Positions 1,817 through 43,650 of a stretch of 43,721 bases of DNA are shown here, in pieces. Numbering within the stretch: the stretch's first letter is position 1; each line of letters opens with the position of its first letter. The DNA is from a virus, in the IMG/VR virus record IMGVR_UViG_3300031972_000820, positions 1-43,721 of that record; one strand, written 5' to 3'. Both the position numbers and the translations under genes were made by a program. The notes under the pieces were generated by a model, which made no database searches, was not told where the DNA came from, and was given only the letters and a program-made list of their open reading frames with translations.

Positions 1817-4018
1817 TTATTGTTTGATTAATTTTCTTTCTACACTACCATCACTGTAGATGTAGAATAGAAGTTTGTTTTTACTTTCTTTTGATGGTCG
1901 ACCTAGTAAATCAGTAACTCTTACTAACTCTTTTTTATCTACTCTTTTAATCAATGGTCCTGACCAAGTACCATCACAGTAGTTATAAGTTAATTGACAT
2001 ATCTCATCCCACTCGTTTTCACAACAGTAATCGTCTACTGATAACACCCAAGCATAACAAAGATCGTTTAACCAATAAGGATTTCCTGGACCAGTAATAC
2101 AACCAGCGTTATATAAACAAGATATAGAATCATTAACATTAGCAGCTGGTTCGTAACTATACGCCCCTGGATCCATGCAACCCACAACCACTTCGATACA
2201 CGAGTTGTTATCCGTGTTAGCAAGTGGATTATAGTTAAGAGCCAAACTATCCATACACCCATAAACATAAGCGATACAACTAAAATCCTCCGTGTTTGCG
2301 AGCGGGTTATAGTTAAGCATAGAAGGATCCGTGCAGCCAGATACATAAGGTATACAAGAATTATTATCACTATTGGCTAAAGGATTATAGTTAAACATTG
2401 TTGAATCGGTACATCCGAAAACAAAAGGTTCACAACCACCGTCATCAGTGTTTGCGTTTACATCATAATTAAACATTGTAGCGTCTGTACAGCCGTAAGC
2501 AAGTGCTATACATGTGTCAGGAGTATTAGCGTTAGGATTGTAATTAAAAGCTAAAGGCTGCATACAACCAGTAACAATAGCAATACAAGAACCAGTGAGT
2601 TCAGTGTTTGCTAAAGGGTTGTAGTTAAATGCAGTTGAATCCATACATCCTAAAACTACAGGGATATCACAGGATCCATCATCAAAGTCCGCCAAGGCAT
2701 TATATTCAATATACGTTGGACTTGTACAACCTGGCACATAATAACAGCTTGAATCCGATGTATTAGCTGTATCATTATAGTTGACAGCCATAATATCTAA
2801 GCATCCAAATATTTTTTCTTCACATGTATTACCACAATTAGTAATAAAGAAGTAAGGTAATAATGGTTGTATAAAAGGAGGTTGAATACTAATCATCGTA
2901 TCTCCTTCTGGATTAATCAGAGTAAATCCACACTCTATAGTTGTTAGTTGTGCTAACGGATCAATTGAAAATATAAATCTTATAGGATCTGGAGCTGTAA
3001 GTCCTACATAGTGAATATCATTAAAAGTACCATTATGGGTAAAGTTATAAGATGTATCAGGGTGAACTAACTCTAAGTTTGAACCTACCCAACCGTTACC
3101 CATTAAATCGTGTAGTATTAAAGTGTAAACGCAAGTATCAATAAGCTCCATTGTATTAGCGTTTGCATCGTAGTTAAACATAGTTGTATCTAAACAACCA
3201 AATATTTTAAGCGTTTGACAGCTTCCATCGTCTAAGTTAGCAAATGGGTTCCACTCTACGTAATCGTTATCAGTACAACCTAGTATTGGTGGACATGAAT
3301 CAGATGCGAATACATGTGTAGAATCACTACCAAAAGCAGGGTCTGTACCATATACTAAAGTATCGTTGCATTGTTTTACAAAGTAAGAACCATCTTGTCC
3401 TTGCCATATAGCTCCATTTAAACCATCTCCGTACGAATCAAATATAGTAAAGTTTAATGGACCTTTAGGTATACACACTGGTATTACAACCGTAGCGTAA
3501 TCAGGATTAGCTCCATAGCCACCTCCAGAAGCATAAACAATACCATTTGTATCTGTTATTTCCCAAGAAGTTTCTGACTGATATTGATCTAAGTTTATAA
3601 TAACTTTAGCTGGCACACAAGGTACTGGTGGCGGTGGTGGATTTGGTTGACAAGGACCTAGGTTAAAGTTAATAATTTCTGTAGCAAAACCATTACTAGG
3701 ATTACATAAAAATTCTACTATAGTATCTTGACAATCATTCCAAGCTCTAAAAGATCCAGCCATACTTGTTGATTGCCACCCATCACCATAACTATCTAGC
3801 ATTATAACCGTGTGTGATCCAGCAGTAGTCCACAAAGTATCGATGTAGTATTCAAACTGCGATGTAGGCGCGTGATACATAACAGTATCACCATTATTAT
3901 CTGTAATGTAAAACTCTGACTCTACAGGTCCAAAACTATCATATTGAGCCTCAACTACTATATAAGAGTTTTGACTAAATATTGATAACGGTAATAATAG
4001 TAATATTAATTTTTTCAT
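1817..4018 (-). CDS. secreted Cys-repeat protein with T9SS-like C-terminal signal
   Basis: 733 residues from ATG at 4016-4018. A GTG start 15 bases upstream is possible, but the ATG has a GGAGAG sequence upstream and lies directly after the previous stop. Residues 1-15 form a signal peptide (MKKLILLLLPLSIFS) cut before Gln16. Two modules ending DSYGDGW/DSYGDGL follow, then about 11 copies of a Cys repeat of the form GCxDxxxxNYNPLANTDNxSC over residues 246-635, interrupted by one beta module. After a six-Cys segment, the last 45 residues contain DLLGR (703-707) and a short strand ending in KLIKQ, resembling type A sorting domains of type IX secretion. Such repeats are known in marine flavobacteria and some marine viruses. 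It is probably exported by the host and may act at the host surface; its role is unknown. Confidence 0.85.
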   Translation of the reverse strand: MKKLILLLLPLSIFSQNSYIVVEAQYDSFGPVESEFYITDNNGDTVMYHAPTSQFEYYIDTLWTTAGSHTVIMLDSYGDGWQSTSMAGSFRAWNDCQDTIVEFLCNPSNGFATEIINFNLGPCQPNPPPPPVPCVPAKVIINLDQYQSETSWEITDTNGIVYASGGGYGANPDYATVVIPVCIPKGPLNFTIFDSYGDGLNGAIWQGQDGSYFVKQCNDTLVYGTDPAFGSDSTHVFASDSCPPILGCTDNDYVEWNPFANLDDGSCQTLKIFGCLDTTMFNYDANANTMELIDTCVYTLILHDLMGNGWVGSNLELVHPDTSYNFTHNGTFNDIHYVGLTAPDPIRFIFSIDPLAQLTTIECGFTLINPEGDTMISIQPPFIQPLLPYFFITNCGNTCEEKIFGCLDIMAVNYNDTANTSDSSCYYVPGCTSPTYIEYNALADFDDGSCDIPVVLGCMDSTAFNYNPLANTELTGSCIAIVTGCMQPLAFNYNPNANTPDTCIALAYGCTDATMFNYDVNANTDDGGCEPFVFGCTDSTMFNYNPLANSDNNSCIPYVSGCTDPSMLNYNPLANTEDFSCIAYVYGCMDSLALNYNPLANTDNNSCIEVVVGCMDPGAYSYEPAANVNDSISCLYNAGCITGPGNPYWLNDLCYAWVLSVDDYCCENEWDEICQLTYNYCDGTWSGPLIKRVDKKELVRVTDLLGRPSKESKNKLLFYIYSDGSVERKLIKQ

Positions 4019-4019
4019 T

Positions 4020-4388
4020 TTATTTCTCTCCACATTTTTTACTTGGATTATTAACTTGTCTCCAATCTTCTTTTTGAAACCAGTCTCTTAATGTAGCGCC
4101 TTTTTTACGAGCACCTTTTACATTTGTTTTTGAAGAACGTCTATATTTACCAGCTTTACCAGACTTCTGTTTAGCAGAAACTAAACGTTGTCTTTCAGAT
4201 TTACTCATACTAGCTATTTTGCTAGCAGGCAAACAAGTCTTTCTAGTACCACCACCTTTTTGCTTAGTAGCCGGTGATGATTTACGACAACTACCTTTAG
4301 CTCCTTGAGCTGTACCGGGTACTCGTTCATAACCCTTCCAACAAGGTAGTGGACTGTTTTTAGTAAACTTAGACTTAATGTCGTACAT
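4020..4388 (-). CDS. small basic protein, Cys-containing
   Basis: 122 residues, very rich in Lys, Arg, Ser and Gly, with four Cys residues. It opens with a PCWKGYERVPGTAQGAKGSC segment and ends with TLRDWFQKEDW and NPSKKCGEK. PCWKGYE-type openings and KGGGTxKTCLP-type cores occur in small basic proteins of marine phages and of large algal viruses; I recall them as DUF-level families without known function. Nucleic-acid binding or packaging with DNA is plausible from charge alone. It is the first of a run of basic proteins up to 5781 and its stop overlaps nothing, sitting one base from the next start. Confidence 0.75.
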   Translation of the reverse strand: MYDIKSKFTKNSPLPCWKGYERVPGTAQGAKGSCRKSSPATKQKGGGTRKTCLPASKIASMSKSERQRLVSAKQKSGKAGKYRRSSKTNVKGARKKGATLRDWFQKEDWRQVNNPSKKCGEK

Positions 4389-4390
4389 TA

Positions 4391-4639
4391 TTACTTTTTC
4401 TTCATTTTCATTTTCATAGCTGAAGCTTTCTTCATCATCATTGTAGATTTCTTAAGCATAGCCATAGATTCTTTTTTCATCTTCATAGCAGCTTTTTTCA
4501 TTTTAGCTGGAGAATCTAATATTTTCTTTTTTAAAGCATCAGGTAAGTTTTTTTGTTTACCAACTAAAGGTTTTTTAGCAGGAGATTTCTTAGCCATTTT
4601 CATTGGTGCTTTTTTCATTTTTGCAGGTGCTTTTTTCAT
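4391..4639 (-). CDS. Lys/Met/Ala-rich histone-H1-like protein
   Basis: 82 residues made almost entirely of Lys, Met, Ala, Pro and Ser, with repeated units such as APAKMKKAP, SPAKMKKAAMKMKK and SMAMLKKS. The composition resembles the C-terminal tails of histone H1 and bacterial histone-like proteins. It has no fold that I can recognise and is probably disordered. Charge suggests DNA condensation, either of host DNA or inside the capsid; this is inference. It sits between a basic Cys protein and a PAP2 phosphatase with one or two bases between genes. Confidence 0.7.
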   Translation of the reverse strand: MKKAPAKMKKAPMKMAKKSPAKKPLVGKQKNLPDALKKKILDSPAKMKKAAMKMKKESMAMLKKSTMMMKKASAMKMKMKKK

Positions 4640-4640
4640 T

Positions 4641-5165
4641 TTAAGTTTTTTTAATATGTTTGTATAATTGTTTTCCTAATTTTGTCCCGTTAACACTATC
4701 ACTCTTATAGTGAGCATGTGCTATGTTTCTACTGTCAGATATATTTTTAGCTGTTTGCATAAACGCTTCTCCTTTACCGTACTTATCTTTTAATACCGAT
4801 GCTATAAGTATTCCTTGTGCAGAGTGGCCAGAAGGATACGAAGGAGTATTCATAGACTCCATTTTAACAGCCTTTAAACCTTTTTCTAACTCGTATGGCC
4901 TTTTTCTATTATGGTATTTCTTTAATTCTAATATTACAGGTGCAGACTCTTTTATAAGTTTAGCTGCTATTTTTTTATCGTAATCTTTTATACCTTGTTC
5001 GTCAGCTGTTTTTTTAAACGCAGCTTCTATATTGTCATACTTCTTAACAAACTCTTTACGTAAAGGTATTTTTTTAAGCGATTTAATCTCTTGATCTGTA
5101 TCAAAACTATTATCACTAGGTGGTTTCATTTTCTTGAAACTCGATATGTCAAAATCCTTAAACAT
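4641..5165 (-). CDS. soluble PAP2-superfamily phosphatase
   Basis: 174 residues with the complete three-part PAP2/haloperoxidase signature: K82-x6-R89-P90, PSGH at 111-114, and S145-R146-x5-H152-x3-D156. In this family the two histidines carry out phosphoryl transfer through a phospho-histidine intermediate. Unlike lipid phosphatases such as PgpB, no membrane helices and no signal peptide are visible, so it resembles the catalytic part of soluble class A acid phosphatases but without an export signal. Substrate is unknown; nucleotides or lipid headgroups are possible. It overlaps the next upstream gene by one base (TAATG) and sits within the basic-protein cluster. Confidence 0.88.
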   Translation of the reverse strand: MFKDFDISSFKKMKPPSDNSFDTDQEIKSLKKIPLRKEFVKKYDNIEAAFKKTADEQGIKDYDKKIAAKLIKESAPVILELKKYHNRKRPYELEKGLKAVKMESMNTPSYPSGHSAQGILIASVLKDKYGKGEAFMQTAKNISDSRNIAHAHYKSDSVNGTKLGKQLYKHIKKT

Positions 5166-5861: not shown

Positions 5862-6227
5862 TTAAAAGTCACTCATTAGTTGGTTATTAATTTCGTTTTG
5901 TACTTCTTTTTTTGTTGCTAGCATTTTAAAACTAAGATCAGCTTGAAACCTAGCAACCTCTTCGCCATCTTTAAATATTATAATAGTAGGTATAACCGCT
6001 ATTTTATGTTTAGCTTGTAGGTCAGGGCTTGTACTTATATCAACATAAGATATAGTTTTACACTCTTTTAAGTCTTGAACCCACGCAACTCCATTAGCCT
6101 TGTTCCACTCAGCGTTAAACTGCGATACGTGTATTTGACCAAAAGCAACGTTTGATGCTAATATACACATTAACACAAGAATATAAGCTATAAATAGCTT
6201 CCAGGTAGTATCTAGTTTATCTATCAT
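5862..6227 (-). CDS. membrane-anchored thioredoxin-fold protein lacking CXXC
   Basis: 121 residues from ATG 6225-6227; a TTG 15 bases upstream is less likely. Residues 9-28 form a signal anchor or signal peptide (LFIAYILVLMCILASNVAFG, then Gln31). The rest follows the thioredoxin fold: a short first strand, a VDIST strand, then IAVIPTIIIFKDGEEVARF with the cis-proline at 80 and a typical C-terminal helix. The usual WCGPC site is replaced by a single Cys57 in QDLKECK, so no dithiol chemistry is expected. It may be a periplasmic binding or scaffold protein. Eleven bases overlap the end of the upstream membrane protein gene. Confidence 0.75.
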   Translation of the reverse strand: MIDKLDTTWKLFIAYILVLMCILASNVAFGQIHVSQFNAEWNKANGVAWVQDLKECKTISYVDISTSPDLQAKHKIAVIPTIIIFKDGEEVARFQADLSFKMLATKKEVQNEINNQLMSDF

Positions 6228-6498
6228 ATAGTTTATCTTCAATTTTTTCTAAAGACTTTTTAATTTCTTGTACGTCTTTTTGAGTATCCATAATAGTATT
6301 ACGTATCATTTGATCTTTCATATCAAACTCCATACGTGTAACTTCTGGTGATGGTGGTGCTGGTAGCTCTTTAGCTTCAGCGATATCTGCTTGTAAAGCA
6401 AACCACATGCCTATTATAGTTGCCATAGCAAAACCTATAGCTATTAAACTTTTAATACTTACTTGAAATCCTGTGTCTTCGTTTAATTCTTTTGCCAT
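6217..6498 (-). CDS. single-TM protein with C-terminal coiled coil
   Basis: 93 residues. A hydrophobic helix at about 17-35 (SLIAIGFAMATIIGMWFAL) is followed by a Pro-rich hinge (ELPAPPSPEV) and a heptad-like coiled coil to the C-terminus (IMDTQKDVQEIKKSLEKIEDKL). No signal-peptidase site is evident, so it is likely an inner-membrane protein with its coiled coil on one side. Layout is that of an inner-membrane spanin or an assembly or entry factor, but no outer-membrane partner is recognisable. The gene overlaps the thioredoxin-fold gene and is one base from the exported 359-residue gene. Confidence 0.7.
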   Translation of the reverse strand: MAKELNEDTGFQVSIKSLIAIGFAMATIIGMWFALQADIAEAKELPAPPSPEVTRMEFDMKDQMIRNTIMDTQKDVQEIKKSLEKIEDKLYDR

Positions 6499-18468: not shown

Positions 18469-21400
18469 TTATTTACTACTTTCTGTTACTTCAGATCCAA
18501 CAGAGAATATTTCCGTTTTACTTGTAGAGTTATTTTCAAAAATTGCGCTAGCGTAATGACCAAGTAAGCTAGAAACGTTTGCTACATTGTTTTTAGCAAA
18601 TAAAACAAAATCGTCAACAGATACAGATCCTATAGAACTAACTTCTAACTGTTTGCTACTAACACTTACAACATCACTTATTTTTTGTATACCATTGTTT
18701 TTGTAGTACAACACATCACCAACTTGAACAGAAGAATTTATTGATCCGTTAAACTTTATTATATTATTGCCAGCGTCAATACTTTTAACTTTTCCTATAC
18801 CTTGAACATTTAAAGCGCCAAAGTCAGAATTTGAATCTAAATCAGCATCGATACCTTTTATATAGTTTGACCATCTACCTTCTTTTTCTATAAACTCGCT
18901 TATACTACCTTCTTGTTTATTTGTGTAAACCTTGCTCACAGACCAATCTTTTTCACCACTATAGTTTAATGTATTAAAACTTTTTATAACATCAGGAGAG
19001 TCGTTTAAAACAACCTCTAGAACTGATGGTTTTAAACTTTCTCCATAAAAAGTATTTCTATCAACTGATTCATCGTGGTGTTTATATATTTTACCATTTT
19101 TAAACGTATAATAATCATTAGAACAGCTAATACCGTTTTCTGGCACAAAAGATTTAAAACTAACCCAACCTCTTACATTTTCTTTATAAGATATAGTTGT
19201 ATTTGTAGTTGGTAAAGTTATGTTATACTCATCTTTTCTATCATCATAGCTACCTATAATTTTATCGTTACCTTTAAGATTATCTTTAAAGTAATCTTTC
19301 ATACCAGCGTCTGATATAGGTGTTAAACCATCTTTTGATAATCTTAATACAGCACCTCTAACTTTATCTGTGAAGTAAACTCTATACGATTCTGATGTAA
19401 ACGATTCTGGGTTTGTAGATATGCCATACTCACCAACAAAAGGTCTAGATTGACCAAGAACTTTATTTGTAGCTGTAACGTTAACGTTGCCATCAGCATT
19501 AAAAAGAGCATCTTTATTAGCGTATATCTGTAAAACCTTATCTTCACATAAAGCAATTAAATCAGAGTCTCTAGAGTGAATTTTTTGTATACTACCATAT
19601 ATAGGGTTTAATTCTTTTGTTATTTTTTCTCCAGCTATAAATTGATTTAAATTATTAACGTTACCAACGCCATTATATATACCAGAGTATATTAAACCAT
19701 ATTTTCTACGCTCTTGCTTGTAATCTTCTTCTTCTTCTAAAACCGTAGATACTCTAGCTCCGTTAGTTATAAATGGTAAGTTGAAACCATCTTTAATTCT
19801 ATTTGATTCAACACCATTTCCAAAAGAAAAGCAATTATGCCAATTCAAAGTGTACTCAGTATTAGTGTTGTAAAGATTTTGTGATATATATATTTTACTA
19901 GCAGTTGTTCCGTTTTGATCAACCTCATAACCACCAACAGTTACAGTTATAGAACTACCGTCTGGCTTAGTTATTTTTAACTTTGATTGTGGTTCTATGT
20001 ATGGCGAACCAATGTAAGGGTTTGTAATATTGGAAAGTCCTTCTGGAATTGCAAAAGATATAAACCAACCTGAGTCTTGTGGGTAATTATTTGTTAGAGG
20101 TGTTTGAAAACCTACATTTAAAACAGTTGTTCCAACAGAAACACTACTTGCGTTTGCTGGATGCTCAACTTTAGATCCAACTGGTATTGCCAAGTGTTTT
20201 GTTTCTTCTTTTAACTCTATTGGGTTTAATCCACTAGCTTCGTAATATACGTCTAAAGGTGTGTTTTCTTTTGGCTCTGTTTCCCAGATAGCAGGATTAG
20301 TAGGTAATTCAGAATCACCTTCAACTGCTTCTAAAAATTCTATAGTGTGGCTAACAGCATATAAACCTGGGTTAGCTATACTAAAGTTTGGCGATTGAGC
20401 ATTTATTCTATTTGTAGAGAAGCTACTATAACCGTTCATAACAGCTTGTCTAAACACCATATTTTGCCCAACTGTAGGTTGTGTAGTAAATATAACGTGG
20501 GTACTTTCTAGCAAGTCAACGTAACCAGTCAAGTGTATTAAAAATTCAGTATTGCTTACCTCTTCAATTTTCCAAACTACTAGATATTTATTAGTACCAG
20601 CTGCATCATAGGTATGACCTCCATTACTGTGAGACTCAAGTATCATACCTTTTTTAATCTGATGTTTAGTTCCGTCAGTATGATCCGCTAGTAAAGTTCC
20701 CACTCTAACACTACAACTTGAGCCAAAAGTAGCGGTACCAGCAATACTATGATGTGCTATAGTTAATTTTAAACCATCACTAGAAATAGGTCCTAAAGCT
20801 CCAGTTGGATCCCAGTTCATATTTCCATTACCATCTTCGTTTTTTATTTTTAAATTCCAAGTTTTAGTTAAGTTTGGTGACAACTGTGCTATTTGGTTGT
20901 CTGGATCACTAAAACCAGTGACACTTCCACCTCCATTATCACCATCGTGATATCTAAGTCGTTGAGAAGTAGTGTTTGTTTGTATTGTATATACTGTTTG
21001 TGATGGGTCTTCTTTAAACCTAAATATTCTACCTGTGTTAAATTGAGAAACCAACCCAACAGTATCAGGGTCATTGTGAAAATCGTTCGCACCACCATCT
21101 ATACCTATATCCCAAAAACCAGATATACTAGCATCACTAGCTGTTGAAATTTCATTGTGAAACAATCCACCTATACCAATTCTAAGTGTTGCTTGAGAAT
21201 TTCCACCGCTTTGATTTGTAATACCCTGCATCGTACCATCTACAAGACTAACCCAAGACCAGTTCAAAGATCCATAGCCATCTCTAGCGCCAGAATATTG
21301 ACCAGCATCAATAAACCAAACTTCATCATCTTCAGCTTCGAAGTTTTTAACATGACTATTACTATCATTAGGATCTTCTAAGTATATATCACCTTGTTTT

Positions 21401-24400
21401 AAGTTTGAAACATCTCTACCACTAGCTTGAGTGTAGTCCCAACTTCCAACCCAACCATCATTAGAAGAGTTTTGGCCACTACTAGTATAATCTAAAAATT
21501 CATTTTCCCAGTGTGAATTTACACCAAACCTATACTGTCCAGCATCCGTACTTACTATTGTTGATGAAGAATCTCTAAAATCTATTTTGCTACCAGCGTC
21601 ATCAGCATTATACCTATAATTTCTAAAAAAAGCAGCGTATCTACCAAAATCACCACCAACAGCGGTATCATACATACCGTCAGTTTGACCTGTTATAGAT
21701 CCAGCGTGTGTAGTAGCTATATCATCTTTTAAATAGTATAATTTCTTAGACGTAGCAACTCTATAGTTAACAGAAATATTAACGTTATCCATTACGTTTT
21801 TAACAAAAACAACATCTTTAAGCAACTTAACAAAAAATCTACCATCAAACTCAGGTGAGTTTTCCGCTTTGTATTTATATATGTTTACTATAGTACCGTC
21901 TAAAATCTTAGTACCATCAGTTATAAAGTCTACATCTTCACCTAATTTTTTATCTAGCTTTAAAAAATAAGAAGCATCCGCTGTGTTGTTTACCGTTTGA
22001 TGCCTCCAGTTTGTATCTATTTTATTTATTCTATATCTTTTTGATGTTCCAGCTATAGAACTAAACTCTATATAAAAAACGCTACCATCATCAATTAAAT
22101 CAATGTTAGCGCCAGCGCTATTAAGAAAAGGTCCATATGTAAGCTCTATAGCGTCTTCACCTGACAAAGGAGAAGAATTAGAAATTAAAGTATCTCCAAA
22201 TATATTGTTTGTAGCAAATATATGTTCTTTAGATTCTATTAAAGCTCGTTTTGTTTTAATGTAGTCTGGAGCTTCATTTTCTATAGCTATAACTTTATAT
22301 CTAGCTGGTTCTTTAACTTGATAATCAACATCTGCTCCTTTTTTTAATATTAAAAAATCATCTAAAGAAACTTTGTTAACATCTGAAGAAGCGAAAGAAA
22401 CCCAAACGTGATCGTCTTCAGCTTGCCAAAATCTATCCATAGCTAGATTATAGTATTCTCCAGAAGTTTCTTTTACAAAAAACTTAAAAAACTCAGTGTC
22501 TTTCATGAAGTCACTACTATCAAGCTTAACTTTTATTTTATTTTGTTTGTCGGCAAGCTCGTTTTCTATTTTTATACCGCTTTTAGTACTGCTATCTTGA
22601 CTTGCTATAACAGGCGTTTCTCTACCGTATTTATCAACAAAAGCAATACCAACTTGATAATCTCTAGCCGATTTAACAGAAGGTTTAGTTCTGCTTTGAA
22701 TTAGTTTTTGCTCAACGCTAGTTGTTATTTTTGGATAGTAAACATCGTTATTTTGGTTTATCAAATCGTAGCCTTGCTCGTAGTTAGCATATATAATTCT
22801 ATTACCAGTAACATCTTGTGCTAAAGCTTTTTTAGGGACATTGTCCCAAGGTCTTATAAGTTGATTTGAGGGTACAGATCTGTTTACAGCCTCTGAAGTT
22901 ATAGTGTATGGAGTATTCCACTTGTCAGATCTTATAGAGTCTAAAACGTAAACATTTGTAGAATTATCTTCTTTGTATAAAATGTCAATAAACACAGCAT
23001 CGTCAGGATGTACATCTGTATCAGGATGTAAAATAACGCTAGTGGTTAAGTTTGTCATACCTAAGTTATAACCTTTCTTTGGGTGGTAATCAAAACCACC
23101 TGGTAAAAACGCTACTTGTGTAAAAGGTGAGAAAGCAGAATATTCTCCGTCTTGATATCTATATCTAGTGGCAAATCTAGGAAGTTTAAATTGATAAAGT
23201 TTTTCTTGAGTATCAAGTCTATCAACGGCATATTTTAGCTCACCATTACCAGTTTCTACAGTTGGTGGCGTACCTACTATATCTGTTATTTTAAACTTAA
23301 CTCTAGCATTATCTGAATTTAAGTTTACTATAGATACAAAATCTATATCGCCTTCAAAATCAGCATTACCATTTTGTATAAAAAATCTACCAGCATAACT
23401 ACCATAGTTAGAGCTGGTATAAGCTGAATTTATATCAAGAACTATATCTTGCGTGAAAGTACCATTGCTATCTATAAGATCTGAATACCAATAGTAAGCG
23501 TTCTGATTTGCGTTTGTATTCGCTACTACAAAATAAACTCTTAAGCCATTAGCGTTAGAAGCGCTAACGTTAGATAATTTAACCGTAATTCTATAAAGGC
23601 TATCTGCTCCAGTTTCCCAACTGCAATTATTCGCAAACCATATTTTTTTATAGTTTCCACCTCCTCCTTGTCCACCACTATAATTAGACGTGTTTACGAT
23701 TATTTTATCATTAGCATTATCGTATGATGCAATTCCATTATTCCAACCATAATTTAAAGGTTTTGTTCCACTAGTGTTTGGAAAAATAAAATCACCGTTT
23801 TCAGCTTTTTCATCTTGTTTGTCAGTAAATGTATTAAGAGTTCCTGTTGGGTTGTTATTACTAATATTAGGGTTGTAAAAGAAATCTGATATTGTAGCTT
23901 TTATAGAGTAATTTGTTATAGGTAAAGATGGTGGTTCACCATTTTGATCAAACTCTTTAAAAACAACAGTGTCACCTGGTTGCCATTGTAAAGTGAAACC
24001 GCTATTACCTTCTATATTTGTTTCTATAGCAGTTTTAAACTCATCTCCAATTTTAAATGTAGAAAAATCATAATGAGGATGATTAGTTATACTTCCAAAA
24101 CTGTTAAAAGAAGATGTGTTGTTAACTGCAGTAGTAGGCTCTGTTATACGCATAACCCCAGTATACGTGTAAGCTTCATTTCTTTCCGATACTAGCTGTA
24201 TTTTAGGAGCTATAGATGGAGCTTTTTTTATAACTGTTATATGTTTTTCTTCTATAGGTATTGATGTACCTGTTTTAGGATTTAAAAAAGAAGTATGAGT
24301 AATTCCGTTTGGATCAGTACCATCAATACATCTTTGTATGTTTATTTTTTTAGGCTCACTATTATTGTCAGTCCAAAACAACATGCCGTCTATAATGTTT

Positions 24401-25218
24401 ATTCCTGTTACAATACTATTAGTTTGAAACTTTAAAACGTCTTCATGGTCAACTAAAACTGGAGTTATAGAGTTTAATCTAGTATCATGTTGAATTATTG
24501 AATTTCCTTTTTCTTTTAAAGATATACTTTTAAGTCTTACTGTTTTAGCAAAATTATTACCATCAGTTAACTCTACACGAAAACGCATTTCTGTTAAATT
24601 ACCGTTTAATGACTGGTTAAAAGTAAATACATTTTTGTATTTTCCATTAATAAGTATTTTTACAGGTTCGTTCGCTTCATTATAGTAAGGTCTATAGCCA
24701 GTAGGATCACCAATACCTACCATGTAAAATTTAGTATTATCTGTCGAACCACCATCATCAAGATCGCTAAACTCAACATCTAACTCATATGTTTTACCGT
24801 CAACTAAATCAAAACTAGTTGATTGAAATAATGGGTATTGGCTTGCTGATGAATTTATCGAAGATGTAAGTAAAACACCATCACCGCTATAATCTTCGTT
24901 TATTATAGAGCTGCTATTCCACTCTGTGCTATCTAAAAGACTTGAATCGTTTAATGATTGTTGCGCCGTTATAAAATAATAAACTTTGTCATTTGCTTCG
25001 TCAGCAACAGAACCAATACATACAGAGTTAGTACCTATAAAATCTTGACCAGAAACTAAAGAATTACCTAATATGTTTTGAACGGTACCAACAGCAGATC
25101 CTTCTGAAGTTGAAACCTGTATGTTTTCTGCATGTCTATACTCACCGTTAGGAACAAGACGCTCGTCAAGGTCTTTATTCATTTTACCTCCGGTAAACTG
25201 ATGTTTAATTTCTGGCAT
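18469..25218 (-). CDS. giant tail nozzle/stabilization-like protein
   Basis: 2249 residues. The start GGKMNKDLDERLVPNGEYR leads into ENIQVSTSEGSAVGTVQNI, which resembles the opening of podoviral tail-tip nozzle proteins (T7 gp12, P22 gp10), where a ring of beta blades begins with residues describing the ordered list of sites. Near the C-terminus, SRDSDLIALCEDKVLQIYAN, SESYRVYFTDKVRGAVLRLS and TTISYKENVRGWVSFKSF read like successive propeller blades of that family. Usual members are about 500-800 residues, so roughly 1400 residues of inserted beta and lectin-like domains decorate this one. It follows the adaptor gene by three bases. Host-receptor binding by the inserts is inferred. Confidence 0.72.
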   Translation of the reverse strand: MPEIKHQFTGGKMNKDLDERLVPNGEYRHAENIQVSTSEGSAVGTVQNILGNSLVSGQDFIGTNSVCIGSVADEANDKVYYFITAQQSLNDSSLLDSTEWNSSSIINEDYSGDGVLLTSSINSSASQYPLFQSTSFDLVDGKTYELDVEFSDLDDGGSTDNTKFYMVGIGDPTGYRPYYNEANEPVKILINGKYKNVFTFNQSLNGNLTEMRFRVELTDGNNFAKTVRLKSISLKEKGNSIIQHDTRLNSITPVLVDHEDVLKFQTNSIVTGINIIDGMLFWTDNNSEPKKINIQRCIDGTDPNGITHTSFLNPKTGTSIPIEEKHITVIKKAPSIAPKIQLVSERNEAYTYTGVMRITEPTTAVNNTSSFNSFGSITNHPHYDFSTFKIGDEFKTAIETNIEGNSGFTLQWQPGDTVVFKEFDQNGEPPSLPITNYSIKATISDFFYNPNISNNNPTGTLNTFTDKQDEKAENGDFIFPNTSGTKPLNYGWNNGIASYDNANDKIIVNTSNYSGGQGGGGNYKKIWFANNCSWETGADSLYRITVKLSNVSASNANGLRVYFVVANTNANQNAYYWYSDLIDSNGTFTQDIVLDINSAYTSSNYGSYAGRFFIQNGNADFEGDIDFVSIVNLNSDNARVKFKITDIVGTPPTVETGNGELKYAVDRLDTQEKLYQFKLPRFATRYRYQDGEYSAFSPFTQVAFLPGGFDYHPKKGYNLGMTNLTTSVILHPDTDVHPDDAVFIDILYKEDNSTNVYVLDSIRSDKWNTPYTITSEAVNRSVPSNQLIRPWDNVPKKALAQDVTGNRIIYANYEQGYDLINQNNDVYYPKITTSVEQKLIQSRTKPSVKSARDYQVGIAFVDKYGRETPVIASQDSSTKSGIKIENELADKQNKIKVKLDSSDFMKDTEFFKFFVKETSGEYYNLAMDRFWQAEDDHVWVSFASSDVNKVSLDDFLILKKGADVDYQVKEPARYKVIAIENEAPDYIKTKRALIESKEHIFATNNIFGDTLISNSSPLSGEDAIELTYGPFLNSAGANIDLIDDGSVFYIEFSSIAGTSKRYRINKIDTNWRHQTVNNTADASYFLKLDKKLGEDVDFITDGTKILDGTIVNIYKYKAENSPEFDGRFFVKLLKDVVFVKNVMDNVNISVNYRVATSKKLYYLKDDIATTHAGSITGQTDGMYDTAVGGDFGRYAAFFRNYRYNADDAGSKIDFRDSSSTIVSTDAGQYRFGVNSHWENEFLDYTSSGQNSSNDGWVGSWDYTQASGRDVSNLKQGDIYLEDPNDSNSHVKNFEAEDDEVWFIDAGQYSGARDGYGSLNWSWVSLVDGTMQGITNQSGGNSQATLRIGIGGLFHNEISTASDASISGFWDIGIDGGANDFHNDPDTVGLVSQFNTGRIFRFKEDPSQTVYTIQTNTTSQRLRYHDGDNGGGSVTGFSDPDNQIAQLSPNLTKTWNLKIKNEDGNGNMNWDPTGALGPISSDGLKLTIAHHSIAGTATFGSSCSVRVGTLLADHTDGTKHQIKKGMILESHSNGGHTYDAAGTNKYLVVWKIEEVSNTEFLIHLTGYVDLLESTHVIFTTQPTVGQNMVFRQAVMNGYSSFSTNRINAQSPNFSIANPGLYAVSHTIEFLEAVEGDSELPTNPAIWETEPKENTPLDVYYEASGLNPIELKEETKHLAIPVGSKVEHPANASSVSVGTTVLNVGFQTPLTNNYPQDSGWFISFAIPEGLSNITNPYIGSPYIEPQSKLKITKPDGSSITVTVGGYEVDQNGTTASKIYISQNLYNTNTEYTLNWHNCFSFGNGVESNRIKDGFNLPFITNGARVSTVLEEEEDYKQERRKYGLIYSGIYNGVGNVNNLNQFIAGEKITKELNPIYGSIQKIHSRDSDLIALCEDKVLQIYANKDALFNADGNVNVTATNKVLGQSRPFVGEYGISTNPESFTSESYRVYFTDKVRGAVLRLSKDGLTPISDAGMKDYFKDNLKGNDKIIGSYDDRKDEYNITLPTTNTTISYKENVRGWVSFKSFVPENGISCSNDYYTFKNGKIYKHHDESVDRNTFYGESLKPSVLEVVLNDSPDVIKSFNTLNYSGEKDWSVSKVYTNKQEGSISEFIEKEGRWSNYIKGIDADLDSNSDFGALNVQGIGKVKSIDAGNNIIKFNGSINSSVQVGDVLYYKNNGIQKISDVVSVSSKQLEVSSIGSVSVDDFVLFAKNNVANVSSLLGHYASAIFENNSTSKTEIFSVGSEVTESSK

Positions 25219-40146: not shown

Positions 40147-40404
40147 TTAATCTACTAGAACAACATCGCCATCACGAATAACCCTATAAAGAGTATCTTT
40201 CCATGATATGTCGTGTCCAGCATGTTTATCGTAATATATCGTATCACCATCTTTTAAACCTTCTACAAGGTTTCCGCACGATATTATTTTTGCTTTTATA
40301 TAACGGTTGTCTTGATCAGTTTCATCTGTCATGATCAACCCAGCAACCTTTTTAGGTTCTGTCTTTATTCTGTCTACTATAATGTATCTATTGATTGCTT
40401 TCAT
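40147..40404 (-). CDS. groES: co-chaperonin GroES
   Basis: 85 residues starting MKAINRYIIVDRIKTEP, a short GroES. The core strands are present: VAGLIMTDE (a mobile loop region shorter than in bacteria), IKAKIISCGN, then LKDGDTIYYDKHAGHDI with the conserved G-D and Y-D-K, and the closing LYRVIRDGDVVLV. Bacterial GroES is about 95 residues, so the loop is trimmed. Its start lies inside the tail end of groEL (17-base overlap), so both are read from one message. It caps the GroEL ring. Confidence 0.87.
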   Translation of the reverse strand: MKAINRYIIVDRIKTEPKKVAGLIMTDETDQDNRYIKAKIISCGNLVEGLKDGDTIYYDKHAGHDISWKDTLYRVIRDGDVVLVD

Positions 40405-41953
40405 TTGTTCTCATGTTTGAAATTACACAATCTGCAGATATAATCGTTGATACTACACTTACTGCATTTTTAAGTGCTGACTTGGTAACTAACACTGGAT
40501 CTATAATACCAGCTGAAATCATAGTAGCATCTTCTCCTGTTACTACATCTATGCCTTGACCTTCTGGTTCGTTATGTTCTACATAGTCTATACCAGCATT
40601 TTCAAGTACAGTGTAAAAAGGAGCTTTTATAGATCTTAGTAGTATCTCTTCACCTACCGCTTTAGCGGAGATTTTCTGAGAGGCATTTAATAGTGCAACT
40701 CCGCCACCTGGTACAATACCTTCTTTTAAAGCTGCTTTTGTAGCATAGATAGCATCTTCAACTCTATCTTTCTTTTCTTTAAGTTCAACTTTAGAATCAG
40801 CGCCTACTTTTACCATACCCACTGATCCTGATAGCATAGCTAACCTTTGTCTATGTTTCTTTTGTATAAACGGGTTTTTCTCCCATTTATCTATAGTTTT
40901 GTTAATACTAGCTATTCTTTCCTCCATTTCATCTTGTGGAGTCTCTATAGTAAGAACTGTATTTTTATCGTCAGTTATAGCTGTATAAGCAACTCCTAGA
41001 CAATCTATATCTATAAGATCTAAATCATCACCAAGTTCTTCGTTTATAACTTTAGCACCTACAAGAAAAGCAAGATCTGCTACTGTATCATCTTTAGTAG
41101 GACCAAAGCCTGGCAAGTCAACTATATTAACTTTTATATTACCTTTTACTTTATTCATAAGAAGTGCAGCTTTAACTTGCTGATCAACTGGAGCTACAAT
41201 TAACAAAGAACGTTTGTTTTTTATAACATGTTCTAATATCTTTTGTATTTTTCTTATATTAGGTATTTCTGAAGATACTATTAATACTAATGGGTTATCA
41301 AGCTCACATATCTGCTTGTCCTTATCAGTAACGAAATGTGGAGATGTGAGTCCTGAATCTACTTGTACGCCGTCAACTACTTCGACATATGTTTCTTCAG
41401 TTGGTGACTCTTCCATTAATACCACACCATCCTTACCTACTTTAGTATAAGCTTCTGCTATAATCTCTCCTAGCTCCTCATCATTATTACAACTAATTGA
41501 ACTAACAGATCTCAGCATATCGCCCTCGATCTTTACAGAAATCTTATCTAGGTAATCATTAACCTTTGTAAGACCGGATTTAATCCCGTCTTTAATTTCT
41601 CTAATGCTAGCATCGTTTTTGCTAACCTCTTTTAATAGTGATTCAGCAAGGACGGTAGCTGTAGTAGTACCATCACCTGCTTCTCTCACTGTGTTTCTAG
41701 CAGCTTCTTTAATAAGGGTTGCACCCATATTTTCAACCGGGTCAAATAAGACAACCGATTCTGCTACGGTTACTCCGTCTTTTGTTATGACCGGGAGTCC
41801 TCTGGCGTCTTCGTATATAACGCACTTTCCAGATGCTCCTAGGGTTGATTTTACTGCTTTAGCTAGTTTTTCAACGCCAGCTACTATTTTACTATTTGCG
41901 TCATTGCCAAAGTTTACGTCTTTGACAATCTCGCTTGGTTGATTGTATTCCAT
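40388..41953 (-). CDS. groEL: chaperonin GroEL
   Basis: 521 residues. Key ATP-site parts are present: ITKDGVTVAESV (with the D of D52), GDGTTTATVLAESLL (with D87) and RVEDAIYATKAALKEGIVPG (with D398), plus GGGVALLNA. The C-terminus ends in NMRTNESNQ, without the GGM-repeat tail of bacterial GroEL, and the total is about 27 residues shorter. The ring presumably folds phage capsid or the giant tail proteins. It is directly followed by the overlapping groES, the same pairing as in bacteria but in reversed order. Confidence 0.95.
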   Translation of the reverse strand: MEYNQPSEIVKDVNFGNDANSKIVAGVEKLAKAVKSTLGASGKCVIYEDARGLPVITKDGVTVAESVVLFDPVENMGATLIKEAARNTVREAGDGTTTATVLAESLLKEVSKNDASIREIKDGIKSGLTKVNDYLDKISVKIEGDMLRSVSSISCNNDEELGEIIAEAYTKVGKDGVVLMEESPTEETYVEVVDGVQVDSGLTSPHFVTDKDKQICELDNPLVLIVSSEIPNIRKIQKILEHVIKNKRSLLIVAPVDQQVKAALLMNKVKGNIKVNIVDLPGFGPTKDDTVADLAFLVGAKVINEELGDDLDLIDIDCLGVAYTAITDDKNTVLTIETPQDEMEERIASINKTIDKWEKNPFIQKKHRQRLAMLSGSVGMVKVGADSKVELKEKKDRVEDAIYATKAALKEGIVPGGGVALLNASQKISAKAVGEEILLRSIKAPFYTVLENAGIDYVEHNEPEGQGIDVVTGEDATMISAGIIDPVLVTKSALKNAVSVVSTIISADCVISNMRTNESNQ

Positions 41954-42592: not shown

Positions 42593-42907
42593 CTAAAATG
42601 GTATTGTAACTACTATAGAACCAAACGTAGAACCTATTATATCAGCTATAAGATCACCTTTCTCAGCACCACCGTTTCTAGCATCATATATCTCTTTGCC
42701 AATACCTATAGCCATACCTGTACCTATACCTATTAATATAGCTTTTCTTTTGTTACCAGTTTTCTTTAACACATAGCTAGTAGTAGCAGATGATATAATA
42801 TAAGTATATCCTACATGTAACTGCTTATCTTGATGTAAAGACAAAACATTTAAGCTTTGTGCATTGCAACTTATACTTATTAGTAGTAATCCTATTATTC
42901 TGACCAT
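42593..42907 (-). CDS. exported YfiM/DUF2279-like membrane protein
   Basis: 104 residues. Signal peptide MVRIIGLLLISISCNA, cleavage before Gln17. The mature part reads DKQLHVGYTYIISSATTSYV, then GIGTGMAIGIGKEIYDARNG and GDLIADIIGSTFGS, the D-K-x-x-H, K-E-x-Y-D and D-L-x-A-D-x-x-G arrangement of the YfiM/DUF2279 family of envelope lipoproteins. The Cys in SISCNA does not match a standard lipobox, so a lipoprotein is doubtful. Role in phages is unknown; an envelope or lysis function is plausible. It overlaps the upstream secreted gene by 13 bases. Confidence 0.6.
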   Translation of the reverse strand: MVRIIGLLLISISCNAQSLNVLSLHQDKQLHVGYTYIISSATTSYVLKKTGNKRKAILIGIGTGMAIGIGKEIYDARNGGAEKGDLIADIIGSTFGSIVVTIPF

Positions 42908-43350
42908 TTATAAATCCTATTATTTTTAATGTACATTATACCTTTAGGTATAGAAGTAAGCTCTCTACCTAATAAGTCATATATTTTGTTGTTTAATAAT
43001 ATTGGATTTAATTCATTAACATGTGTAACTGTATTAACTAGTTGCCACGCACCGTTTACAAACACTACATACTGGCATGTATCACACATCCACACTGGTG
43101 ATAGGTCATAACATACTTTAACAGTATCAAGCATATTTACATCAGGAAACATACCTACATCACCACTTGCTGAGTAACACTGCTCTGTATCACAAACTTC
43201 CCACATAAACGTTACACTGTCAGTTGAGTTATTAGTACCTATAAGTGTTAACGTCTGTCCACCACTTATACTATATGACACTGAGTCACACACTGTCTGT
43301 GCGCTCACGTATGTAGTACATAGTAGAAAGATTGCTATAAGTTTATTCAT
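42895..43350 (-). CDS. secreted Cys-rich protein with T9SS-like tail
   Basis: 151 residues; first gene of the minus-strand arm. Signal peptide MNKLIAIFLLCTTYVSA, cleavage before Gln18. A central domain holds eight Cys within about 20-92 (VCDTEQC, YDLSPVWMCDTC). The C-terminal part from about residue 110 has KIYDLLGRELTSIPKGIMYI with DLLGR at 125-129 and ends NNRIYKWSE, which resembles the type A C-terminal signal of Bacteroidota type IX secretion (the DLLGR and KGIxYI elements). Only the tail, about 40 residues, matches. It probably reaches the cell surface of the host. Function unknown. Confidence 0.75.
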   Translation of the reverse strand: MNKLIAIFLLCTTYVSAQTVCDSVSYSISGGQTLTLIGTNNSTDSVTFMWEVCDTEQCYSASGDVGMFPDVNMLDTVKVCYDLSPVWMCDTCQYVVFVNGAWQLVNTVTHVNELNPILLNNKIYDLLGRELTSIPKGIMYIKNNRIYKWSE

Positions 43351-43595: not shown

Positions 43596-43650
43596 ACGAC
43601 TACACCCAGATAATATATACAGATAATAACTAACTAAACTAAATACTACT

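Follow-up and report, generated by a model that had tools for sequence, protein, structure and literature searches.

Introduction

Phages that encode cargo of the T9SS have been described before. Cryophage carries T9SS cargo genes with type A domains (PMC7468147), and gut phages encode T9SS-tailed proteins near BACON genes (PMC6949934). A short kind of sorting signal was reported by Ye et al. (2025) from Prevotella intermedia, whose short CTDs comprise 43-55 residues and are preferentially cleaved at PT/GI, five cleavage sites having been fixed by mass spectrometry (PMC11969387). Their motif B contains Tyr and Gly and then a basic residue, motif D reads GxY (or GxN) before an Ile, and motif E is basic; three strands are predicted for these CTDs, and PorV binding is predicted as for long CTDs (PMC11969387). 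According to the authors, no species of the phylum other than P. intermedia has been reported to have both kinds of CTD (PMC11969387). In the open-access literature that we searched, neither phages nor marine Flavobacteriales are described as having short CTDs. Phage T9SS cargo is already known; what appears to be new is that phages use short CTDs and that these are abundant in marine Flavobacteriales.

Here we analyse a 43.7-kb virus record (IMGVR_UViG_3300031972_000820, 43,721 nucleotides; the whole stretch is referred to as the window), which encodes two predicted exported proteins with short C-terminal tails, P0001 and P0002.

Organisation of the P0001 gene

P0001 is encoded at 42895..43350 on the minus strand as the first minus-strand ORF, adjoining a divergent plus-strand ORF that starts near 43650. 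A first-pass annotation had described it as a 151-residue first gene of the minus arm with a T9SS-like tail, and the ORF list and sequence bear out the position, the length and the quoted tail: the C-terminal sequence is KIYDLLGRELTSIPKGIMYIKNNRIYKWSE, and the stretch quoted at the time, KIYDLLGRELTSIPKGIMYI, corresponds to residues 122-141. The protein begins with a Sec-type signal peptide, as judged from its sequence pattern (residues 1-18, MNKLIAIFLLCTTYVSAQ; 43297..43350, minus strand), a prediction that agrees with the family pattern and with a helix at residues 3-22 of the AlphaFold model. It is followed by a putative beta-sandwich (Ig/FN3-like) domain (residues 19-106; 43033..43296), a linker of residues 107-116 (43003..43032), which is predicted to be disordered (pLDDT <50) and contains the cleavage-site-like motif THVNEL, and the short sorting tail (residues 109-151, i.e. 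43 residues; 42898..43026). Within the tail, alignments A3 and A4 and the published motif definitions (PMC11969387) locate motif B, KIYDLLGRE (residues 122-130; 42961..42987), motif D, KGIMYI (residues 136-141; 42928..42945), and motif E, NNRIYK, with basic residues near the C-terminus (residues 143-148; 42907..42924), all on the minus strand.

The next gene (42593..42907, minus strand) shares 13 bases with P0001, and both are probably on one transcript. It encodes a YfiM/DUF2279-like, predicted periplasmic protein, which matches PF10043 at the cut-off and NF008028 with E = 3.6e-10, below the cut-off. A search upstream of P0001 for a Bacteroidota-type promoter (TTTG/TAnnTTTG) found none.

In an IMG/VR scan, 43 viral loci were found to contain homologues of P0001, and 71 loci were retrieved with the tail alone as query, so that the tail, which the first-pass annotation had proposed to seek in related phages, is present in dozens of them. 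Neither P0001 nor locus L036 had a homologue among 50,697 records of isolated phages. The alignment of 32 family members (A3) reveals a common pattern of signal peptide, conserved-cysteine domain and conserved tail with the consensus xxIYDLxGREL..IP.G.MYIRNxKxYI. The invariant and near-invariant cysteine columns of the domain correspond to C21, C53, C58, C80, C89 and C92 of P0001. When we scanned with the N-terminal domain only in search of homologues with a long CTD, all new members were short-tailed. Whole-gene dN/dS amounts to 0.11-0.22 in three close pairs, P0001 giving 0.15 and 0.22 with two close relatives. The gene as a whole is under purifying selection, and since homologues occur in more than 40 viral loci and dN/dS is 0.11-0.22, we regard it as real. 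The tail is less constrained than the domain, with dN/dS up to 0.86 in the close group, where there are very few changes; this counts against a reading of P0001 as T9SS cargo. At locus L037 the family ORF (1289-1957) extends upstream to an ATG, which places about 65 extra basic residues (MRKPRSKTYLKSLTSKAVKYYFENPDISLKVIAAKYRIN...) ahead of the signal peptide; this extension probably reflects a misplaced start or a gene fusion.

The position of the gene varies among phages, some carriers have no YfiM-like neighbour, and the related phage L024 has no P0001 gene at the corresponding position. Relatives of the window's terminase are found in elemo-group Flavobacterium phages, in Cellulophaga phages and, at 64% identity, in an environmental phage. 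In the same genome, a 2249-residue protein (18469-25218, minus strand) ends in a crassvirus muzzle C-terminal domain (PF25729, E = 2e-11). The window also encodes a GroEL-like chaperonin (40388-41953, minus strand; PF00118, E = 7e-51) and a GroES-like protein (40147-40404, minus strand; PF00166, E = 2e-8); in nine loci GroEL genes lie at most five genes from a P0001-family gene, in some of them directly upstream. Homologues of an exported thioredoxin-like protein of the window (5862-6242, minus strand; PF00085), recognised by eye as cluster C5, are encoded at most four genes upstream of P0001-family genes in five phages, and they might help to form disulfides in a family so rich in cysteine.

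Predicted fold

An AlphaFold2 model of P0001 computed with A3 has a mean pLDDT of 77.5 and a pTM of 0.59. It comprises a beta domain at residues 24-104 (strands with pLDDT of about 82-94), followed by the disordered linker (107-116) and, at the C-terminus, by a small beta tail. Comparison with the PDB yielded FN3/Ig-like matches only (best Foldseek hit FN3-like, E = 0.025; VIA Z-scores of 8-9, up to 9.0). These may just reflect a common arrangement, and no solved structure emerged as a clear relative of the N-terminal fold. The uncharacterised protein A0A218ML00 of an uncultured virus (BFVD) matches across the entire P0001 model with 34% identity and is probably a member of the family.

A short tail shared with cellular proteins

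The P0001 tail has no match in Pfam, NCBIfam or PHROGs, which counts against the T9SS-cargo reading. A canonical type A domain was rejected for both P0001 and P0002, as neither matches PF18962 or TIGR04183 at E values up to 10; the P0001 tail of about 43 residues has short beta elements only, lacks a PNP motif and does not reach the seven strands of type A domains. The first-pass annotation had proposed to align both tails with type A domains and had counted similarity below the family thresholds against its claim. Both tails do lie below the PF18962 and TIGR04183 thresholds, but this test has no discriminating power: of five tail-bearing Bacteroidales proteins that were scanned (L145, L073, L076, L082 and L070), none matches either model. 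With HHalign, phage short tails and canonical long CTDs align at 10% in motif B only, which also counts against the T9SS-cargo reading, compared with 21% for cellular short versus long CTDs. Both window tails resemble the classic long type A domains only weakly.

From the cleavage-site-like motif to the C-terminus, P0001 has 42-45 residues, within the short-CTD range of 40-55; the median length of the 61 phage tails that were parsed is 42. YDLLGRE in P0001 fits the short-CTD motif B, and Y124 and G128 are near-invariant in A3. Motif D of P0001, GIMYI, is one residue longer than the usual GxY, a further point against the T9SS-cargo reading; L037 has GIYI, and the cellular proteins L070 and L109 share the longer form with its GxxYI spacing. 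At the cleavage position P0001 has VTHVNEL, whereas many relatives, including many outside the window's own group, have PTGI, PTSI or TTGI (or, at this linker position, TVGI), to be compared with PT/GI of short CTDs.

We searched 84,980 prokaryote species, one genome per species, with a tail profile built from phage sequences only. Of 436 candidates 128 loci were confirmed and 80 kept. In all 80 the match lies at the C-terminus, ending at most six residues from the end of the ORF. A signal-peptide-like N-terminus was found in 79 of these 80 cellular ORFs and in 46 of 46 complete viral ones. By record title, 78 of the 80 belong to Bacteroidota (Prevotellaceae, other Bacteroidales and Flavobacteriales); the remaining two are L147, an 'uncultured bacterium', and L075, a Pelagibacter MAG. 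The L075 contig, labelled Candidatus Pelagibacter, encodes an Omp28-like protein with a short T9SS-type tail (3273-5132) and is probably misbinned Bacteroidota or phage. The short tail is modular: in cells it occurs on GH5, GH30, C10 peptidase, choice-of-anchor D and other unrelated secreted proteins, and in viral contigs on Omp28-like and thioredoxin-like proteins. In a phylum-wide draw, the tail profile matched only 6 of 247 genomes, mostly weakly, and the P0001-type tail is therefore clade-specific rather than phylum-wide.

HHalign identifies the phage tail with this cellular class (99.4%, E = 1.5e-21, 45 of 46 columns ungapped, cleavage-site region included), and an HMM of cellular tails only, run on all six frames of the window, ranks P0001 first (E = 1.9e-8; next ORF 0.024); since the cellular tails had been gathered with the phage profile, these two results are less independent than the figures suggest. 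The C-terminal position, the signal peptides and the association with PorV are unaffected by the sampling. A chance motif, which the first-pass annotation had considered less likely in view of two tailed genes, is rejected by the species-wide search together with the cell-only HMM result; in a shuffle control, no shuffled sequence got past the filters of HMMER, which left no distribution of scores for comparison. From these comparisons we assign the P0001 tail, with high confidence, to the short T9SS-type sorting tails.

The second tailed gene, P0002

P0002 is encoded at 1817..4033 on the minus strand, 38.9 kb from P0001, in agreement with the distance of about 39 kb given earlier. Its sequence suggests another exported protein, of 738 residues from a GTG or 733 from an ATG five codons in, and its family comprises 35 viral loci. 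The C-terminus is VTDLLGRPSKESKNKLLFYIYSDGSVERKLIKQ, with the tail KKELVRVTDLLGRPSKESKNKLLFYIYSDGSVERKLIKQ at 1820..1936 (minus strand). Most of the 35 loci have the P0002-type short tail; in the orthologues L246-L251 a canonical type A domain occupies the same place, and the five of these that were scanned score 36-41 bits with TIGR04183 (cut-off 23) and 38-44 bits with PF18962 (cut-off 27). This swap provides direct evidence that the short tail replaces a T9SS sorting domain. The first-pass annotation had regarded the tails of P0001 and P0002 as alike and T9SS-like. Their T9SS-like nature is strongly supported for both, but they represent two different short types: the idea of a single domain is unsupported, as HHalign gives 50% over one 12-residue motif only.

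One viral contig, IMGVR_UViG_3300025759_000334 (L249/L206), combines a P0002 orthologue bearing a long type A domain with a short-tailed Omp28-like protein. Repeats of the form GC.D..A.NYNPLANTDDGSC make up most of P0002 itself, and a short stretch matches a protein of Synechococcus phage S-CAM3 that one record labels as virion structural.

Likely hosts and gene exchange

Among 296 sampled Flavobacteriales genomes the P0002-type tail occurs in 95, often in at least 20 copies, and the P0001-type tail in 40; both types are present in 39 of the latter genomes (p = 3e-21). Tail-bearing Flavobacteriales genomes are mostly 0.8-2.0 Mb in size. Streamlined marine Flavobacteriales have both tail types as well as chromosomal P0001-family genes. 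As named from translations, one such gene, L068, adjoins thymidylate synthase (thyA), DHFR and clpX genes, and another, L069, adjoins asparaginase and TatD genes, with P0002-type-tailed genes on both sides; some other host loci, which are short, could be prophage. The phage therefore probably infects a member of the streamlined marine Flavobacteriales, in whose own proteins the same tails occur. In a phylogenetic tree, the host members of the P0001 family are interspersed among the phage ones, e.g. L068 with L041 (100/99) and L329 plus L331 with L151 (100/98). This scattering indicates gene exchange between phages and hosts.

These data bear on two alternatives. Phage structural proteins commonly have Ig-like domains, and P0001 heads an arm that also contains the terminase, portal and capsid genes. 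P0001 could hence be a virion protein whose Ig/FN3-like domain decorates the particle, the tail being a mere structural hairpin. We consider this improbable: a Sec signal peptide does not suit a protein that is assembled in the cytoplasm, cellular glycosidases and a peptidase share the tail, and the family occurs in host chromosomes and at inconstant positions in other phages. The interleaving of host and phage members, together with the lack of the gene at the matching position in L024, would also suit a recently acquired host gene that brings the phage no benefit and whose tail is a leftover. This is marginally less credible still, given the purifying selection (dN/dS 0.11-0.22), the presence of the gene in many divergent phages and a second T9SS-tailed gene, P0002, in the same genome.

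Association with PorV

In 201 genomes from the family of G008, the tail profile matched 133 of the 155 genomes with PorV above its cut-off, as against 3 of the 46 other genomes (Fisher p = 8e-24, with kinship ignored). PorV was likewise present in 8 of 8 selected tail genomes versus 0 of 14 control genomes. In Flavobacteriales, 32 of 39 tail genomes exceed the PorV cut-off, and the seven below it may be incomplete assemblies. This co-occurrence, the canonical T9SS domains replacing the tail in P0002 orthologues and the phages that carry the family without a YfiM-like neighbour speak against the least probable alternative, namely that the tail acts through a different route, for instance by anchoring the protein in the periplasm or binding a chaperone in a lysis function shared with the overlapping YfiM-like gene. 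In favour of this alternative one could cite the predicted periplasmic neighbour with its 13-base overlap and the extra residue in motif D.

Proposed export route

Since the last 43 residues match a Bacteroidota T9SS sorting tag, the phage probably uses the export machine of its host. With a probability of roughly 0.8, we read P0001 as phage-borne cargo of the host T9SS with an Ig/FN3-like domain. Its secretion, cleavage and surface attachment, and the role of surface effector that the first-pass annotation had suggested, are inferred along the following route. Sec would export P0001, whereby the signal peptide is removed, and in the periplasm residues 19-106 would form an Ig/FN3-like domain with disulfides. 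The 43-residue tail, with motifs B, D and E, would then bind the shuttle PorV and bring the protein across the outer membrane through the translocon. Cleavage by the sortase PorU may follow near residues 107-112, after which the domain would be linked to surface polysaccharide or released. As a guess, the displayed domain changes the surface of the infected cell, e.g. by masking receptors or excluding other phages.

More tentatively, and with the odds rather against it, short CTDs could constitute a large uncatalogued class of T9SS signals in streamlined marine Flavobacteriales, which marine phages routinely put on small Ig/FN3-like proteins for display on infected cells, for instance to block other phages. 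If so, phages of abundant marine Bacteroidota would exploit the host T9SS through a minimal tag, and short CTDs would be widespread, compared with one Prevotella species reported so far in the literature searched. Because Pfam and NCBIfam miss the tag, such phage genes would be invisible in present annotation. The short tag would also indicate the host of uncultured phages.

Comparison with known systems

With type A domains (PF18962, TIGR04183), the P0001 tail shares motif B (xYDxxGR-like) and a basic C-terminal end; these domains, however, span about 75 residues with seven strands, and the window tail lies beneath every threshold. As in Cryophage and the gut phages, phage genes bear T9SS sorting domains and presumably use the host machine. 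There, the domains sit on endoglucanase, GH39, PA14 and BACON proteins and are annotated as T9SS sorting domains, whereas the P0001 tail sits on a small Ig/FN3-like protein, is short and is missed by the models. It also differs from the short CTDs of P. intermedia in that it is phage-encoded, has its closest host relatives in marine Flavobacteriales, is known from sequence alone and, like other phage tails, usually has GxMYI instead of GxYI as motif D. Measured against the published description, P0001 nevertheless resembles these short CTDs in tail length, C-terminal position, Tyr and Gly of motif B and a basic motif E, in the small beta tail that follows a coiled linker in the model and, more loosely, in a cleavage-site-like motif with Ile/Val and a motif D ending in YI. 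The phage layout as a whole, about 42 residues long and with Gly invariant in both motif B and motif D, likewise corresponds to that of the P. intermedia short CTDs.
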